Assembly (NCBI RefSeq): GCF_003575965.1
Contig: NZ_QWJJ01000011.1
Location: 62,001-126,000 of the forward strand
Direction of reading: 5' to 3'
From: Pseudooceanicola sediminis
Lineage (GTDB): Bacteria; Pseudomonadota; Alphaproteobacteria; Rhodobacterales; Rhodobacteraceae
Length of the DNA: 64,000 nucleotides
Shown here: in pieces, positions 28,302 to 35,818 of the stretch
Position numbering within the stretch: position 1 is the stretch's first letter
Layout of the letters: each line of letters starts with the position of its first letter
Translations under genes and position numbers: made by a program
The notes under the pieces: generated by a model
The model's input: only the letters and a program-made list of their open reading frames with translations
Databases searched by the model: none
What the model was told of the DNA's origin: nothing

Positions 28302-28723
28302 CAGGAATTTCTCCGCTATAATACTTTCTGACTTCCCAGAATAACATCCGAGTTTCAAGCGGATCGTCCAAATGGGTCGCCGCCCGGACGAAGTTCGCGG
28401 CGGAAAGGCGGCTCAGCGGGCATTCAGCATCCCCGGCGCTTTTCCAGCTGCCCCGTGGCGCGCCATCCGCCTGCGCCTTGACACCCTTTGGCTGTGTCCA
28501 CGCCGCGTCGGGCCGCCGTGACTGCCGGTTGCGCGCCGCCGTCAACTCGCCGCCCAGCCACCGTCACACTACCGTCATCCTGCGCTGCAACAATAACATC
28601 AAACGCACGGCGATCACGTGATCGCCCGGGCCGAAAGCACACAAAGTTTACCAAAACATTGACACGATGTGCCTTAGGTCACAAGCTGACGCGCATTAAC
28701 ATCACTTTATTTTGGACAAGATT
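28302..28723. promoter_or_regulatory. Divergent promoter region, GH13_18 / autotransporter
   Basis: This 420-bp gap lies between two divergent starts. On the plus strand TTGACA at 28659-28664 is a consensus -35 about 60 bp before the autotransporter start, followed by a poor -10. On the minus strand TATTAT at 28323-28318 lies just upstream of the GH13_18 gene. No coding frame is recognisable. Confidence 0.4.
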
Positions 28724-31700
28724 ATGCCAACCGAAGCTGCCATCTCGGCCCTCGCAGGTTGCAATCCTGTTCGTGCGTCACGCGCCCTGTCATGCAGGGC
28801 ACGTCTGTGCTGTAGCGTTGCCGCGATCATCGCGGCCCTGCCGGTCACGACGCCCCGGCCCGTGCAGGCGGAAACGATCACGACGGATCTCACCGCGAAC
28901 CTGAACGTGGCCGGTGGCGAAGAGGTCACCATCGCCGAAACGATCAGCGGCAATGCGCATACGATCACCACCGAGGCCGATACCGGCAGCGGCGTCGGCG
29001 CGCTGACCCTCGACGACAATGTCGGCGTCACCCAGGTTGGCGTCTTTACCAACAACGGCGCCACGACATTCGGTTCAGGCGCCAGCATGATCTCAAGCAA
29101 CGTCATCAACAACCAGTGGCTGACCCTGGGCGACAACGCGGTATTGTACGTCAAAAAACAGCTTTCGTGGCAATCTGCGGCGATCAAGAACAACTACAAT
29201 ATTTACATGGGCAACGGCGCCACGCTCCAGGCCGATGGTTTCATATACAACGAGGAAGGCGCGACCATTGAAACCCACGGCAACGCTGTTTTCAACGCGA
29301 TCGCGAATGATGCCTGGGCGGCGACCTTCATCAACAAGGGCAAGATCTGGACGGACCCCGGCTATTTCACCATCACGATTGGCACCGAGACCCCCTCCTA
29401 CGAACTCAATTATTTCGAAAACCACAGCACCGGCACCGTCGACCTCAGGGCGGGCGTCGTCATGCAGGGCGAAAACACGGTTTTCAAGAACGCCGGGAAA
29501 ATCTTCATTTTCGAGGACGCCGCGCTCTCGACAAAGACATTTGAAAACCAGTCGGGCGGCTACGTTCTGCTCGATGTCGGCGGCACGCTCTACTCCTCGG
29601 TCCAGAACAAGGCCGGCGCCGAGATCGACATCAACAACGGCACGCTGTCGGGCAAATTGGTAAACGCGGGCACGGTCACGAACACCGGCAATCTCGATGA
29701 CGTCGAAAACACCGGCGGCACCATCGACAACCAGAACATCATCAACGGCGATCTGGTCATCTCGGGCGGTGTCGTCACCAACAGCGGCACCGTAGAAGGC
29801 CAGACCACTCTTTCCGGTGGCAAGCTGGAAACCTCGGGCCAGGTGCAGGACGTGACCTTCACCAGGAATTCCGAACTTGAGGTCACCTCGGGTGCGGTCG
29901 GCAATGTCACGATCGACGGCTCGCTGTCCCCGAACACCGGCGGCACGCTGACCATGACCGGCGGCAGCATCCAGGATCTCGACGTCACCGGCGACTACGG
30001 CAAGGCGATCCTCAGCGCCGGCCAGGTCGACGGTGACACCACGATCGGCTTCGGTGCCACGGTCGAGGCGGCAGGCGCCGCATTCAACGGCGCGGTCACC
30101 GTGGCCGAGGCCGTCGTCAAACCGAACGAACCCGACGGCCCCGGCACCTTTGTGCTCAGCGCCGATACAACGGTCACCGGCAAGTTCATCAACAATGGCA
30201 AGGTCATGTCGACCGGCACCGGGCCAGTCACCCTGACAATCGCGTCGGGCTACGATTTCGTCAACTACGGCACGCTGGACGGGGATTCCGAAAACGGCAC
30301 CGCCGACATGACCATCACCGCCGACAACATCTACATCAGCCCCGAATCCATCGTGACGGGGAACGTGTTTCTGAACGGCACGGTCGACAACGGCGGCGTG
30401 CAGGACATCACCAATGATCTCAGCAATGACCTCGTGGTGCTGGCGGGGGGTATTTCGGCGGTCAAGGCCGACATCAGCGGCAATGGTCACAATGTCACGA
30501 CCAACGCCGCAGGTGGCATCTCCGACCAACCCGGCGTGCTGCGCGTCAACGGCGTGACCTTCGACGACATCGCCACCCTGCACAACAAGGGCGAAACCTA
30601 TATCCGGCCCGATGCCACCCTCAGCGCCCAGGTGATCGACAACTCCGGTCTGATCTCACTGGATGAAGGCGCCTCGCTCATCGGCACCGGCAACACCATG
30701 ACCAACGAAGGCGCCATCGTGGCCGAGGGGTCGGCCCTGATTGCCGACGCGGGCGCGATCAACAACAGCGGCACCCTGACCTTCAAGAATGGCGGCACGC
30801 TCAACCCCAACAGCGACAATTCCGGGGGTGAGGCGTTCAACAACTCCGGCACGCTCAGCATCGGGGGCAACCAGCTGGTGGTCTTCGGTGATGGCACCGC
30901 CGACGTGATCAACAACCTAGCAGAGGGCGAAATCGTCATCGAGACCGGCGTGGACTACAGCAACACCCACTCCGCGCTCAGCGGCCAGGGCACGACCCTG
31001 AACAACGCCGGCAAGGTGTCGACCAACGTGCAAACCAGCCTTGATCTGGCCGCGATCAACAACCTCGCAGGCGGCGTGCTGTGGTTTGGCGAAAATGCCA
31101 GTAGCGACGAGCGCCGGGATGTCACGACCGTCACCGTCACCAACGGGATCGTCAACGCGGCCGGTGCTACCCTGACATCCGTTTATGCGGACCTGACCGC
31201 CGACGTGGAAAACCATGGCACGCTGAACGCGAACTTTACCGGCAACCTGGTATCCGACGGCGACATCATCAGCGCCACTGTGCTGGGCGACACGCAGATC
31301 ACCGGCGGCACCGCGCAAGAGCTGCTGACCTTCGGCGACCTGACAGTCGAAAATGCCGTGATCGAGGGGCGCGTCATCAACCACGGCGCTTCGCTTGACG
31401 CGTCAACCACCACGAACAACGGCGGCACGATCATCGTCACCGCCGGGTCTCTCAGCAATATCGTCAACAATTCCGGTCGTTTCGACATCACCGGCAACAC
31501 CGTCGAAACACATAGCGTCCATGAAAACCTCAGCTTTGAAAACCATGGCACGGCATCCAATGCCAGCACCCGGCTGGGAAAGGTCAGCGTCACCAATACC
31601 GGCACGTTTTCCAACAGCGGCACCCTGAAATCTTTTACCGGCAACAGCGGCACCTTCGAAAATTCCGGCACGGTCGAAAACGTCGTCATCAATGACGGAT

Positions 31701-33910
31701 CGGCCACCAATACCGGGTCCATCAGCACCTTCCGCCAATATGCGGGCGTGTCGCTCAGCAGCGGCTCGATCGACTCCTACGGCTTGTTCGGAACGGCCTC
31801 CGGCACGATTTCCGGCACCGTCCGCGAAGGGATCGGCGCACAGGATTCCGCCGCGCTGCTGATCAACGGCAACCTGACCCTCGGGCAGTTTTCCAACAGG
31901 CCCTCAACCATAACCAACAATAGCGTCGCGCCATTTCGCATCACGGCAGGCGTCACCAGCCTGTATCGCGGCGGCACCGTCACCAACTTCGGTGACATGC
32001 GCATCTCAGATGCCAGCCTGATCGCGTATGGCACCAACGAATTCCTCAACAAACCCGCCGCCAGCCTCAGCCTGACCAACGCCAGGCTCGATTCCCAGAC
32101 CTTCTGGAACGCCGACGGTGCCAGCGCGACCTTTACCGACAGCGCCTTCAACGGCTGGTTCAGCAACAACGGCACGCTGTCCCTGTTCGGCACCAACACC
32201 TGGACCGGCGATCTGGTCAGCCCCGCAGCACCCGCGGCGACAGCCGTCGTGACGATGCAGAACGGCGTGACCACCGACCACCTCAGCGTGTCGGGCAACC
32301 TGCAACTGGGGCGGCGGCTTGAGCTGGACGTGGACCTGTCCGACAGCACCGGCAAGGTCGATACCATCTCCGTTTCGGGGGCTGTCACCAAGACGGAACA
32401 GGACCTGACATTCGCCTTCAACAACGTCGGCCCCACGGGCACCTTCGTTGCCTTTGACAGCAATGTCGACGTGCTGACCTACGGCAGTTTCGATGTCGCG
32501 GATTATGCCGTGACCGGCCTGCCCACCACCGGTGCCGTCCAGTACAAGCTGGTCAACAATACCTCCGCCAACGCGCTGCAACTGCAGAACGCCACCAACC
32601 CCGGAACCGGCGGCGTGGTCGGTGGCGTCGGCGCGGTCGGTGGCATCAACAACCCCGGCAACCAGCCCGGCACGCCCACGATCCTGCCCGGCGGCAGCGT
32701 CTCGCAGGTGCTGAACTCGGTGCCGCGCCAGTTCACACCCGCCGCCCTGCCCGGCGGCGGTACCTTTGCCCGCACCCCGACGGGTGGCGCGCCCTCGGCC
32801 GGGCTTTCGGGCGGACTTTCGGGCGGTGTGTCCGGTGGTGGGTCTGGCGGACTGTCGGGCGGGGACAACAGCGGCACGCTCAACTTCCTGCCCGGCGAAC
32901 CCGTGCTGCCGCCCCAGACCCAGACCAACACCTGGGCCCGCGTCAACGGGGGCCGCGCCACGATGACCAGCGAAACCACGACCAGCCTCGGCACCACCTC
33001 CAGCGATGTCGACGTGCGCTACCAGGGCGTGGACACCGGCTTCGACATCAGCGGCGGCGAAAGCCCCCTTCTGGGCGATTGGTCCTTCAGCCTGGGTGCC
33101 TCCCTCGGCACCACGACCGGCAATGTCAGCCAACCCGTCTTCAACCTCGATGGCGCCACCGGCAATGTCATCCCCGGCTCGATCAGCAGCTACAACCGCC
33201 AGGATTTCACCCAGGTGCAGGGCGGCGTCACCTTCGGCCTGACACGCGGCGATGTCTTTGCCGACCTCCGACTGGGCTATGCCAGCACCCGGTCCGACCT
33301 CAAGAACCTCGCGACGGATCCGACCAGCGGTCTCGGCATCGCCGACCAGACCTATACCACCCAGGGGCCCACCTTCAGCGGCAAGATCGGCAAGACCTTC
33401 CTGCTCGACGAAGTACGCGAGATTTCCCTGACTCCGTCACTGGGCTTCTTCTTCTCGAACCAGTCCGCGGACGACCTGACCTACGACAACGGCACGCCGA
33501 ACGACACCAGCGATGATGGCCTGCTCCAGATCGACGACGTGCAGACTCGGCTCGCTCACCTCGGCGTGACGCTGGCCAAGGAAACGATGCTGCAAACCGG
33601 CACCGCGGCAATCCAGTATTTCGGCACGATCACCGGCTACAAGGATTTCGGCAGGGACACCACGTCGCACTACTTCCAGAAAACCGATGGCGCCGGAAAT
33701 CCGGATCCCTCCGTTGCGCCACTCGAAAGCCGCAGCAGCGCCTCCGGCGCGTACGGAGAGCTGAGCCTGGGCCTGACCTATATCCAGACCTTCGACACGG
33801 GCCTGGCCAGCCCCGTGAAAAAGCTTGAGGCGACACTGCGCGCCGACAGCCAGATCGCGGGGTCTGTCGATGGCTGGGGCCTCACGGCGCAGATCCGCTA
33901 CAGCTTCTGA
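28724..33910 (+). CDS. Large type V autotransporter (beta-helical passenger, C-terminal barrel)
   Basis: This is a 1728-residue surface protein. A long N-terminal extension precedes a hydrophobic core (SVAAIIAALPVTTPRPVQA) with probable cleavage before ETITTD. The passenger, roughly residues 55-1330, is a degenerate repeat rich in N-N-G/S-G-T and 'F-x-N-x-G-T' steps, typical of a right-handed beta-helix. A Gly/Ser-rich linker (repeated LSGG/VSGG) near 1365-1385 leads into an autotransporter barrel of about 300 residues that ends IRYSF with the terminal Phe of outer-membrane proteins. Only the signal region contains cysteine. ATG 28724 is chosen over an upstream TTG. It could be an adhesin; no protease triad was seen. 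Confidence 0.85.
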   Translation: MPTEAAISALAGCNPVRASRALSCRARLCCSVAAIIAALPVTTPRPVQAETITTDLTANLNVAGGEEVTIAETISGNAHTITTEADTGSGVGALTLDDNVGVTQVGVFTNNGATTFGSGASMISSNVINNQWLTLGDNAVLYVKKQLSWQSAAIKNNYNIYMGNGATLQADGFIYNEEGATIETHGNAVFNAIANDAWAATFINKGKIWTDPGYFTITIGTETPSYELNYFENHSTGTVDLRAGVVMQGENTVFKNAGKIFIFEDAALSTKTFENQSGGYVLLDVGGTLYSSVQNKAGAEIDINNGTLSGKLVNAGTVTNTGNLDDVENTGGTIDNQNIINGDLVISGGVVTNSGTVEGQTTLSGGKLETSGQVQDVTFTRNSELEVTSGAVGNVTIDGSLSPNTGGTLTMTGGSIQDLDVTGDYGKAILSAGQVDGDTTIGFGATVEAAGAAFNGAVTVAEAVVKPNEPDGPGTFVLSADTTVTGKFINNGKVMSTGTGPVTLTIASGYDFVNYGTLDGDSENGTADMTITADNIYISPESIVTGNVFLNGTVDNGGVQDITNDLSNDLVVLAGGISAVKADISGNGHNVTTNAAGGISDQPGVLRVNGVTFDDIATLHNKGETYIRPDATLSAQVIDNSGLISLDEGASLIGTGNTMTNEGAIVAEGSALIADAGAINNSGTLTFKNGGTLNPNSDNSGGEAFNNSGTLSIGGNQLVVFGDGTADVINNLAEGEIVIETGVDYSNTHSALSGQGTTLNNAGKVSTNVQTSLDLAAINNLAGGVLWFGENASSDERRDVTTVTVTNGIVNAAGATLTSVYADLTADVENHGTLNANFTGNLVSDGDIISATVLGDTQITGGTAQELLTFGDLTVENAVIEGRVINHGASLDASTTTNNGGTIIVTAGSLSNIVNNSGRFDITGNTVETHSVHENLSFENHGTASNASTRLGKVSVTNTGTFSNSGTLKSFTGNSGTFENSGTVENVVINDGSATNTGSISTFRQYAGVSLSSGSIDSYGLFGTASGTISGTVREGIGAQDSAALLINGNLTLGQFSNRPSTITNNSVAPFRITAGVTSLYRGGTVTNFGDMRISDASLIAYGTNEFLNKPAASLSLTNARLDSQTFWNADGASATFTDSAFNGWFSNNGTLSLFGTNTWTGDLVSPAAPAATAVVTMQNGVTTDHLSVSGNLQLGRRLELDVDLSDSTGKVDTISVSGAVTKTEQDLTFAFNNVGPTGTFVAFDSNVDVLTYGSFDVADYAVTGLPTTGAVQYKLVNNTSANALQLQNATNPGTGGVVGGVGAVGGINNPGNQPGTPTILPGGSVSQVLNSVPRQFTPAALPGGGTFARTPTGGAPSAGLSGGLSGGVSGGGSGGLSGGDNSGTLNFLPGEPVLPPQTQTNTWARVNGGRATMTSETTTSLGTTSSDVDVRYQGVDTGFDISGGESPLLGDWSFSLGASLGTTTGNVSQPVFNLDGATGNVIPGSISSYNRQDFTQVQGGVTFGLTRGDVFADLRLGYASTRSDLKNLATDPTSGLGIADQTYTTQGPTFSGKIGKTFLLDEVREISLTPSLGFFFSNQSADDLTYDNGTPNDTSDDGLLQIDDVQTRLAHLGVTLAKETMLQTGTAAIQYFGTITGYKDFGRDTTSHYFQKTDGAGNPDPSVAPLESRSSASGAYGELSLGLTYIQTFDTGLASPVKKLEATLRADSQIAGSVDGWGLTAQIRYSF

Positions 33911-34370
33911 CGCCTGCAACAGCCCGCACACCCACCCGGTCCCGACGCCGTGCGGGCCACACCGCTGTCCGCACCGCAGGGGCACCGTCAAGATACCGTC
34001 AAGATACCGACGTTCAAAATCGCCCTGTTTTCCGGCGTCCTGCGGCATCCGGACTGCCTGCCCCGCACTTATCGCAGACGCTCATCAGGCAACAAACAGG
34101 CGGTCCTCACGACCAAAGCACCGCCCAACATTTCCGGCTTCCGTTTCCCCGAATCCAGCATCGCAATTCCCGCCCGCACCGCGCGGGCAAACAATGCGCC
34201 ACGGCGGGCCCGGCCCTCCCGATCGGCTAAAATTCGCTGATCTGTCTTAAATTGCAATTCGTCCGAAATGATTCGTGTTATAGTTGCATTGTTCGCGCTC
34301 ATTATTAACGGGCGATGGCGAATTTTCCGCCTGCGAACACATTTCAAATACACATTTTTTGGAGGAACAG
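33911..34370. other. Leader region of the RiPP-like operon, with short tandem repeat
   Basis: No gene was recognised in these 460 bp. About 33985-34012 carries two and a half copies of a 12-bp tandem unit (GTCAAGATACCG). The last 130 bp are strikingly AT-rich compared with flanks and probably carry the promoter of the peptide gene, with TTATAG at about 34275-34280 a possible -10. A GGAGG at 34361-34365 serves the ATG at 34371. Confidence 0.4.
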
Positions 34371-34661
34371 ATGTCCACGAAAACGATTGCAAAGCTTCTG
34401 GGTTCGGATATGAAATTCACGGCCCAGTTCATGGTGCAGCCAAAGGAAACGCTGGCTGAATACGGCATCGAAAGCGAAAACCTCGACGATGGCGATGTTC
34501 GCGCGATGGAGGCCGTTGTGCGCCTGACGCAGGATTCCCTGCGCGCCAATGCCAAACTGCTCGGGGTCGACATAGCGACTGCGGCATGGGGCATCGGCGC
34601 AGGGTGCTGCAATTCCAAAAGCGTCATGATGCGCGACCTCGGGGCAACCAAACGCCTCTGA
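34371..34661 (+). CDS. Putative RiPP precursor peptide (NHLP-like leader, Gly-Cys-Cys core)
   Basis: This is a 96-residue peptide with GGAGG 5 bp before the ATG. Residues 10-35 (LGSDMKFTAQFMVQPKETL, then AEYGIE) resemble the nitrile-hydratase-like leader pattern in which a 'D-x-x-F...P-K-x-x-L-x-E-x-G-I' block precedes the core. The C-terminal part, GIGAGCCNSKSVMM at 74-87, contains the only two cysteines, C79 and C80, side by side. A radical SAM/SPASM gene starts 26 bp downstream. That order suggests a ribosomal peptide modified by the radical SAM enzyme, but the cleavage site, modified residue and bioactivity are unknown. The AT-rich leader DNA hints at transfer. I do not recognise the family. 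Confidence 0.6.
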   Translation: MSTKTIAKLLGSDMKFTAQFMVQPKETLAEYGIESENLDDGDVRAMEAVVRLTQDSLRANAKLLGVDIATAAWGIGAGCCNSKSVMMRDLGATKRL

Positions 34662-34687
34662 GGCGCTGCCTCAAACCGGAGCATTCC

Positions 34688-35818
34688 ATGAAAAGCATCG
34701 CGGTCTATCTGACCGGTGCATGCAACCTGCGCTGCAAACATTGCAGCGTGGGCCTTGATCAGTATCGCCCAAGGGAAACCTTGGACGATGCGCAGATCAT
34801 GCATGTCATCGAAAAAGCCGCCGACCGTGGCGTCGAATACGTCACGCTCCTCGGCGGAGAGCCGACCTACACGCGTCACGACCTTGCTGCATTCACCCGC
34901 AGGGCATCGGAGGTGGGCGTCAAACTTTCCATCAACACCAACCTTTTCTTTCCCGAAAAGCTTCTGCCGCTGATCGACGACCCGGGCCTGGGCAATATCG
35001 TGGTCAGCTTGGATGGCGCCGGTCCTGAAACCCACGACGCCATGCGCGGCAAGGGCAGCTTTGCACGCACCATCCGCAACCTGGAATTGATCATTGCGGC
35101 GCGCGACAGGATCCGCCCGGAATTGACCATTGATCTGACCTTCGTCCTGACGGCGCTGAATCAGACAGATGCAATTCGTATTGTCGACCTGGCAATCGCG
35201 CACCGCATCGACAAGTTGAACATCAATCTGATCAACCCCGTCGGGCGCGGGAACACCTTCAGCAAGAAACTGCGCGGCGGCGACGACTACCTCGCCGCGA
35301 TTTCCAAGATGGTCCTGTATTTTCAGCTGCTGCGACCCCCGATCACCCTATCCATCCCGCTGCCGCCCGCAGTCGCTGAATATCTCGAAATGGAATACGG
35401 CGTTCCCGTCGACGCCTTCATCAATGATGCCGCATGTGGCGGAACCGAGGTTTATACCTACGTCGATCTTCGCGGCAACCTCTTGCCCTGCCCCGGTTTA
35501 TCCTACGAAGAGGGGCGCAACGACACCATGAACCACAGGCACGAAAACCTCAGTATCCTTGACCGCAGCATTGCCGACATCGAAACGACCTCGGTCTTTC
35601 GCGCCTTCAACAAGGCACAGCAATCCCGTTCAAAGAACGCCGTTTTCGAACCGTGCAATGTCTGCAAGCATCGCGCCGTTTGCTCACCCTGCACGGCAAG
35701 TTATTACAAAAAGGATTCAGCCAATGTCATCGACATGTGCAAACGCATTTACGAAAAACTGCCAGACGACCCGCGTATATCGACCATTTTCCACATGAGC
35801 GAATCTGCCGAAGTGTAA
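34688..35818 (+). CDS. Radical SAM/SPASM peptide-modifying enzyme
   Basis: This is a 376-residue iron-sulfur enzyme. The radical SAM motif CNLRCKHC (C12, C16, C19) binds the SAM-cleaving [4Fe-4S] cluster, and GGEP at 56-59 binds SAM. A full SPASM-type C-terminus follows: C250-x12-G263-x4-C268, then C323-x2-C326-x5-C332-x2-C335, and C351. These would hold two auxiliary clusters; the x2 spacing before C335 differs from the usual x3. Enzymes with this layout install thioether, C-C or C-N links or remove side chains in RiPP precursors, and the peptide gene immediately upstream is the obvious substrate. No RiPP recognition element fused to it was seen, nor a dedicated protease or exporter beside it. 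Confidence 0.85.
   Translation: MKSIAVYLTGACNLRCKHCSVGLDQYRPRETLDDAQIMHVIEKAADRGVEYVTLLGGEPTYTRHDLAAFTRRASEVGVKLSINTNLFFPEKLLPLIDDPGLGNIVVSLDGAGPETHDAMRGKGSFARTIRNLELIIAARDRIRPELTIDLTFVLTALNQTDAIRIVDLAIAHRIDKLNINLINPVGRGNTFSKKLRGGDDYLAAISKMVLYFQLLRPPITLSIPLPPAVAEYLEMEYGVPVDAFINDAACGGTEVYTYVDLRGNLLPCPGLSYEEGRNDTMNHRHENLSILDRSIADIETTSVFRAFNKAQQSRSKNAVFEPCNVCKHRAVCSPCTASYYKKDSANVIDMCKRIYEKLPDDPRISTIFHMSESAEV

Follow-up and report, generated by a model that had tools for sequence, protein, structure and literature searches.

The window analyzed here is a 64,000-nucleotide stretch of the Pseudooceanicola sediminis genome (contig NZ_QWJJ01000011.1, positions 62,001 to 126,000 of the forward strand). 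Its positions 34,371 to 35,818 hold two adjacent forward-strand genes, one for a peptide that resembles the precursor of a ribosomally synthesized and post-translationally modified peptide (RiPP) and one for a radical S-adenosylmethionine (SAM) enzyme. A preliminary description made from the DNA letters had put this pair forward as a RiPP unit. The open reading frame (ORF) for the 96-residue peptide (34371..34661, + strand) extends from an ATG at 34371 to a TGA at 34659-34661 and is preceded by a GGAGG ribosome-binding site (34361..34365, +, direct sequence reading), in line with that description. Within it, a block resembling the nitrile hydratase leader peptide (NHLP) type occupies residues 15-34 (34413..34472, +), with scores under the curated cut-offs. 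The ten-residue segment WGIGAGCCNS, which we call the core, occupies residues 73-82 (34587..34616, +) and contains the Cys pair C79-C80 (34605-34610, +). Counting from the translation upheld the statement that these adjacent residues, in a GIGAGCC near the C-terminal end, are the sole cysteines of the peptide. Scans against NCBIfam, Pfam, PHROG, and PADLOC returned no match above cut-off for the peptide, and general radical SAM matches only for the enzyme (e.g. phrog_1802 over nearly its full length, E 6e-23).

The enzyme gene (34688..35818, +, 376 aa) starts with an ATG at 34688 after a gap of 26 bp, in which direct reading of the sequence reveals a GGAG, the probable ribosome-binding site (34678..34681, +). 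As previously described, this is a radical SAM protein with a CxxxCxxC motif: PF04055 matched with E 4.5e-23 (82.7 bits against a cut-off of 29.5), and the CX3CX2C cluster motif reads CNLRCKHC (34721..34744, +). All of its cysteines, exactly ten, belong to cluster motifs. Beyond C12, C16, and C19, a seven-Cys SPASM-like region follows toward the C-terminus (35435..35740, +; CX12GX4C-X54-CX2CX5CX2C-X15-C), in which C250-X17-C268 (CX12GX4C) and C323-X2-C326-X5-C332-X2-C335 precede C351. The canonical motif, as given in PMC5715301, is CX9-15GX4C...CX2CX5CX3C...C. The last close pair is therefore spaced by X2 rather than X3, confirming the departure at C335 that had been pointed out. The accompanying claim of a full SPASM cysteine set holds for the recognizable seven-Cys layout, but in an X2 variant for which the PF13186 SPASM model stayed below its cut-off of 21.5 bits (15.5 bits).

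We searched a collection of species genomes with six eight-residue patterns from the peptide, and tblastn confirmed two relatives among the 348 stretches returned. One is from Rhodobacteraceae bacterium MAG5 (WKFK01000014.1) and the other from Sphingomonas oligophenolica S5.1 (NZ_RCZK01000006.1); their identity to the window peptide is 37-38%, over residues 13-88 and 15-86. Each peptide gene stands directly upstream of a gene for an enzyme homolog, and enzyme adjacency was no criterion of the search. In MAG5 the enzyme gene has a GTG start 6 bp past the peptide stop, and in Sphingomonas the two genes overlap (ATGA). Each of the three genomes, including our own, contains one such peptide. Precursor homologs beside enzyme homologs elsewhere are the mark of a RiPP precursor-enzyme pair, and this was the case for 2 of 2 relatives; the absence of homologs that would have spoken against the preliminary description did not occur. 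Because both relatives co-occur with enzyme homologs, the pair is beyond chance, and it is present in two families of Alphaproteobacteria (Rhodobacteraceae and the family of Sphingomonas).

Alignment of the three peptides, for which WGIGAGCC was also a search pattern, showed WGIGAGCCNS to be identical in all of them, with the CC pair as the only Cys of each. The core codons carry synonymous changes for I, A, N, S, and the third G, indicating conservation at the level of the protein sequence. Tails after the core vary (KSVMMRDLGATKRL, GTNKVRFEK, and KVMLASR). In the leader, 12 of 73 columns are invariant: M1, A18, F20, P24, K25, G32, D39, E47, R51, G65, D67, and A71, of which F20, P24, K25, and G32 lie in the NHLP-like block. 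The alignment suggested in the preliminary description thus revealed a conserved C-terminal GCC segment and a leader that is loosely conserved only.

All three enzymes exceed the PF04055 cut-off and contain CX3CX2C, as expected of the radical SAM superfamily. Their ten cluster cysteines are invariant, with four extra Cys in the MAG5 enzyme and one in the Sphingomonas enzyme, and the SPASM-like spacings (X17, X54, X2, X5, X2, and X15) are the same in all three. None has the canonical seven-Cys motif, and PF13186 gave 13.0 bits for Sphingomonas and no match for MAG5. As the X2 spacing occurs in 3 of 3 enzymes, the resulting CxPC is common to them and no quirk of a single genome.

Three results are unconditioned by the WGIGAGCC pattern: leader similarity, the neighboring enzymes, and their clade. 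Without the core, the leaders are 26-31% identical pairwise (18, 19, and 22 of 70 columns), and the leader-only local scores of 72, 54, and 92 were equaled in 0, 1, and 0 of 5000 shuffles each. The enzymes are 34-37% identical across nearly their full length (227-249 bits). A family profile built from the members was run on 1509 ORFs of at least 200 aa from the fetched loci, excluding eight duplicate loci; two members scored 678 and 659 bits, an enzyme from a locus designated L176 scored 141, and all others scored 95 or less. In a maximum-likelihood tree of 41 enzymes the three members formed one clade (support 100/99), with a program warning about long branches that come together in the region of L176 and the family.

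What is established is that the two genes are paired in three genomes, that the core and the ten cluster cysteines are kept, and that the enzymes form a single clade. We infer that the peptide is a substrate, along with the type of bond, the cleavage, and the final role considered below. The locus is probably a minimal two-gene RiPP unit consisting of a precursor and a SPASM-like radical SAM enzyme that modifies the WGIGAGCCNS core. The 96-aa gene would give a precursor with a loosely kept leader of ~72 residues that includes the NHLP-like block, the ten-residue core, and a short variable tail of net positive charge. The enzyme, with probable auxiliary clusters in its variant SPASM region, would bind this precursor and, as the preliminary description also proposed, act on its C-terminal segment by making a radical-derived bond on the core. 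The roles proposed for auxiliary clusters are substrate binding or electron transfer. Release of the core would fall to housekeeping proteases, which we presume because no protease was identified beside the pair. In favor of such a unit, the substrate of many SPASM enzymes is a peptide whose gene lies close to that of the enzyme (PMC5715301), and the weak general matches of the enzymes include the peptide maturases StsB, MftC, SkfB, and PqqE. Among solved structures, SkfB was the best match of the enzyme family profile and PqqE the second best.

As to the bond, we tentatively place first a thioether from one or both adjacent Cys to a nearby residue, since the CC pair is the sole Cys and every one of the three enzymes had StsB as its first or second NCBIfam match (76.4, 91.2, and 75.4 bits). 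The StsB model (NF045574) has a cut-off of 625 bits, which none of them reached. A C-C or C-O crosslink at Trp73, as in cyclophanes or streptide, would instead leave the two Cys free for a metal or a disulfide. W73 is invariant in all three peptides, though picked by the search pattern, and PqqE- and WgkB-type SPASM enzymes are among the weak matches. We nonetheless consider this crosslink unlikely: the Cys pair is just as invariant and provides the sole Cys of each peptide, and the window enzyme, with 62.4 bits for the WgkB model and 61.4 for the PqqE model, is far from their cut-offs of 650 and 381.

Comparison with known systems places the thioether proposal in context. Sactipeptide and ranthipeptide maturases (StsB, SkfB, and CteB) resemble the present enzymes in combining a radical SAM domain and an auxiliary-cluster region with Cys-containing cores. 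They differ in several respects: the enzymes here fall far under the StsB cut-off, have CX2CX5CX2C instead of CX2CX5CX3C, and accompany adjacent Cys in a short fixed core. In addition, there is no room for an N-terminal RiPP recognition element (RRE), as the first cluster Cys of the window enzyme is residue 12.

The PqqA/PqqE and MftA/MftC pathways also pair a small precursor with a SPASM enzyme. Their precursors have a fixed core, from which pyrroloquinoline quinone (PQQ) and mycofactocin arise, and these core sequences are unrelated to WGIGAGCCNS. The scores here were below the cut-offs of PqqE (381 bits) and MftC (TIGR03962; 75.9, 74.6, and 77.8 of 265 bits, the last being the top NCBIfam match of the Sphingomonas enzyme). 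According to PMC8326336, PqqE itself lacks an RRE. Next to our pair, we identified no partner of the PqqD or MftB type. The one PqqD-like match in the P. sediminis genome scored 21.9 bits against a cut-off of 23.4 and lies on a different contig (C48). By analogy with these pathways, WGIGAGCCNS might be processed to a peptide-derived cofactor or metal-binding molecule and not to a secreted antimicrobial, with the CxPC cluster tuned to an adjacent-Cys chemistry new to RiPPs; we regard this as a rather unlikely extension of the proposal. If the core is truly fixed in a rare, patchily spread islet, a conserved product would be indicated, not a diversified antibiotic.

The leader had been likened to the NHLP type. 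Like NHLP RiPPs and proteusins (TIGR03793 and TIGR04509), the window peptide has a leader block of the form F-x3-P-K-x6-G and a radical SAM partner. At E up to 1, its NCBIfam matches were TIGR04509 (0.0059), citD (0.044), TIGR03793 (0.17), and TIGR04351 (0.17); three of these four are NHLP-type, but the models are mutually related and do not amount to three independent matches. The curated cut-offs of TIGR04509 and TIGR03793 were missed (16.6 of 34 and 11.7 of 50.9 bits). Among nine shuffles and a reversal of the peptide, 0 of 10 matched any of these models and 2 of 10 matched unrelated families (E 0.048 and 0.16), showing that E-values of this size arise by chance. Matches to the citrate lyase acyl carrier protein (citD), phrog_21359 and phrog_22447 (E 0.052 and 0.19), and DUF4261 (E 0.032) were treated as such.

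A profile of the three peptides gave a similar picture. Against 177,635 solved-structure sequences its top match was the NHLP leader chimera 8tb1 (E 0.053), with thioredoxin reductase as runner-up (E 0.069). Within a set preselected by TIGR04509, its top match was a nitrile-hydratase-like protein, with E 3e-5 when the protein is scored as a whole and 0.0031 for its best stretch. A scan of 289 genomes of the class with TIGR04509 found 10 with matches and none above cut-off, and yielded, for comparison only, this nitrile-hydratase-like protein and an NHLP-type array. By eye, the second half of the array leader has no visible counterpart in our leader. The array itself (L158, G379:C1:1018924-1022013) encodes five precursor-like peptides of the NHLP type. 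Their leaders are nearly identical, whereas their C-terminal ends differ, except in two of the five, which are alike. What stands of the earlier claim is the weak resemblance; with scores under the curated cut-offs, membership can at most be inferred. We read the leader as one of NHLP-like origin or as a case of convergence, and as no tested NHLP member.

An NHLP-like block would suit epimerized core residues without a crosslink, as in proteusins and epipeptides. Proteusin precursors have nitrile-hydratase-like leaders and are acted on by radical SAM epimerases, which are RRE-bearing (PMC8326336). The enzymes here differ from these epimerases by their SPASM-like region; that of the window enzyme has seven Cys, with 25 residues beyond the last. 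Furthermore, four of the ten core residues are non-epimerizable or Gly-like, three being Gly. Epimerization is thus very unlikely as the sole modification.

Several findings weigh against a two-gene RiPP unit with an NHLP-type leader and a fixed core. Only three members are known. With WGIGAGCC among the six search patterns, the search itself favored eight of the ten core residues, leaving N and S alone free of search bias; part of the core invariance is this bias. Taken alone, the MAG5 and Sphingomonas peptides match no NHLP model (0 of 2) and gave only weak IniB matches (E 0.011 and 0.0049), which we treated as chance and which tell against a plain NHLP assignment. The enzymes also match, weakly, radical SAM families that are not known to act on peptides. 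For the window enzyme, the best solved-structure match was cytosylglucuronate decarboxylase, and the only PADLOC name was viperin (pVip, E 4.2e-16). NirJ was the top NCBIfam match of the MAG5 enzyme. AhbD, NirJ, MoaA, viperin, and others score alike on these enzymes, as weak general matches. Finally, a domain for leader recognition (RRE) was not found next to the pair.

Neighboring genes bear on whether the peptide is a substrate at all. We compared an 18-kb stretch of the window with two 16-kb loci around the relatives (blastp, ORFs of at least 90 aa, E 1e-4). The peptide and the enzyme were the only ORFs with counterparts across the three neighborhoods, and the remaining matches were antisense shadows of these two genes. 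The MAG5 neighborhood contains bL9-like, HlyD-like, and trigger-factor-like ORFs (the first and last by eye); the HlyD-like ORF is immediately upstream of the pair and is not shared by the other two. The Sphingomonas pair has a fumarate hydratase (PF05681) on one side and a LepA-like ORF (by eye) on the other, with a pyridoxal phosphate-dependent enzyme (PF00291) farther upstream. In the window, an autotransporter-like ORF, a PNPOx gene, and an FMO gene next to the pair were considered as parts of the unit and set aside, having no counterparts in either relative. In agreement with the preliminary description, the two genes include no protease, exporter, or recognition domain that we could identify (ORF lists partly by eye).

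Such an isolated pair could mean that the peptide is no substrate but a small protein in its own right, which might serve the enzyme as a chaperone or as a partner that binds metal. The lack of an identified protease or recognition domain beside the three pairs, the lack of a neighbor common to the three loci, and the generic family match of the enzyme are in keeping with this. A diverged N-terminal region joined to a fixed short C-terminal Cys motif looks precursor-like, however, as do the NHLP-like block and the one-to-one pairing with a SPASM-like enzyme, and we judge an independent protein to be quite improbable.

The spread of the two genes fits a patchily distributed islet that may have moved between lineages. 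In 22 of 22 other genomes of the same genus, the islet was untouched by the DNA matches listed (13 candidates scored per genome), in agreement with the protein searches. In 16-kb stretches of two same-genus genomes, the FMO gene alone had a counterpart among the genes near the window pair. The islet has 56.6% G+C against 62.0% for the window, and 3.5% of equal-size sliding stretches were as low. The MAG5 islet (50.5%) is also below its flanks (58.7 and 57.1%), while the Sphingomonas islet (60.8%) is not (58.8 and 62.1%).

Further members were sought widely, in genome samples that are small relative to the rarity of the family and do not show absence. Scanning the species-genome collection with the window enzyme gave 21 pattern stretches, none confirmed, and a search of 195 relatives with each protein found only the P. 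sediminis genome itself. At E 1e-12, 25 of 385 genomes of the class had matches, our own included; in the others, identity was 29-37% and covered parts of query residues 3-208. Run with a threshold of E 1e-30, the family profile identified 1 of 299 relatives of Sphingomonas (the Sphingomonas genome itself), 1 of 292 relatives of MAG5 (MAG5 itself), and 2 of 295 genomes of our own family, namely P. sediminis and G649, whose enzyme is outside the peptide-enzyme family.

The next nearest enzyme (L176/L178) was evaluated as a distant member and rejected, as it belongs to a different cluster with no WGIGAGCC-like peptide among the listed ORFs. Nif11-domain proteins are encoded as well in the 14.8-kb stretch that holds L176, which we count in favor of the RiPP reading of our pair. 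Locus L178 (G649:C400:8000-22817) is a separate RiPP-like cluster with a SPASM-like enzyme and, by eye, B12-type radical SAM and sulfotransferase-like proteins. Pfam identified in it a protein with two Nif11 copies (PF07862, E 7.6e-15) and a cupin whose N-terminus is weakly Nif11-like.

Mobile elements and viruses likewise provided general matches. Plasmid records with general enzyme matches numbered 20, 75, and 7 (20 of the 75 were listed); in the 20-record result none exceeded 37% identity, and those named were generic maturases. The window and Sphingomonas peptides had no match on plasmids, and three Rhodovulum repB matches of the MAG5 peptide (E 0.02-0.04) were at chance level. Two Rhizobium plasmids typed as conjugative (L039 and L040) carry runs of two and three neighboring radical SAM genes. 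Phages gave two records with general matches only. Viral contigs contained no confirmed member; three weak enzymes (25-30%) scored no higher than 52 bits on the family profile. An exact GIGAGCC pattern occurred in 102 viral stretches, none of which contained an ORF of at least 200 aa matching the profile at E 1e-5.

A full-text literature search, outside of which most subscription literature lies, found GIGAGCC in no paper. Likewise, we found no literature linking radical SAM and RiPP terms to NHLP or to vicinal cysteine, none on streptosactin and StsB, and, in further searches, no title or abstract start naming such a family. The pair apparently represents a small, undescribed family of ribosomally made modified peptides. 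As a precursor-enzyme pair it is compact and testable, with three natural homologs, a ten-residue target with paired Cys, and an unusual auxiliary-cluster motif.

Two features upstream of the pair were also noted. A repeat-rich, autotransporter-like ORF of 1732 aa (28712-33910, by eye) had no Pfam match at E 0.1 or better. Between it and the peptide gene lies a dispersed repeat (33959-34033), stretches of which, 34-63 bp long, match at least 12 other places in the same genome (13 of 164 candidates scored).
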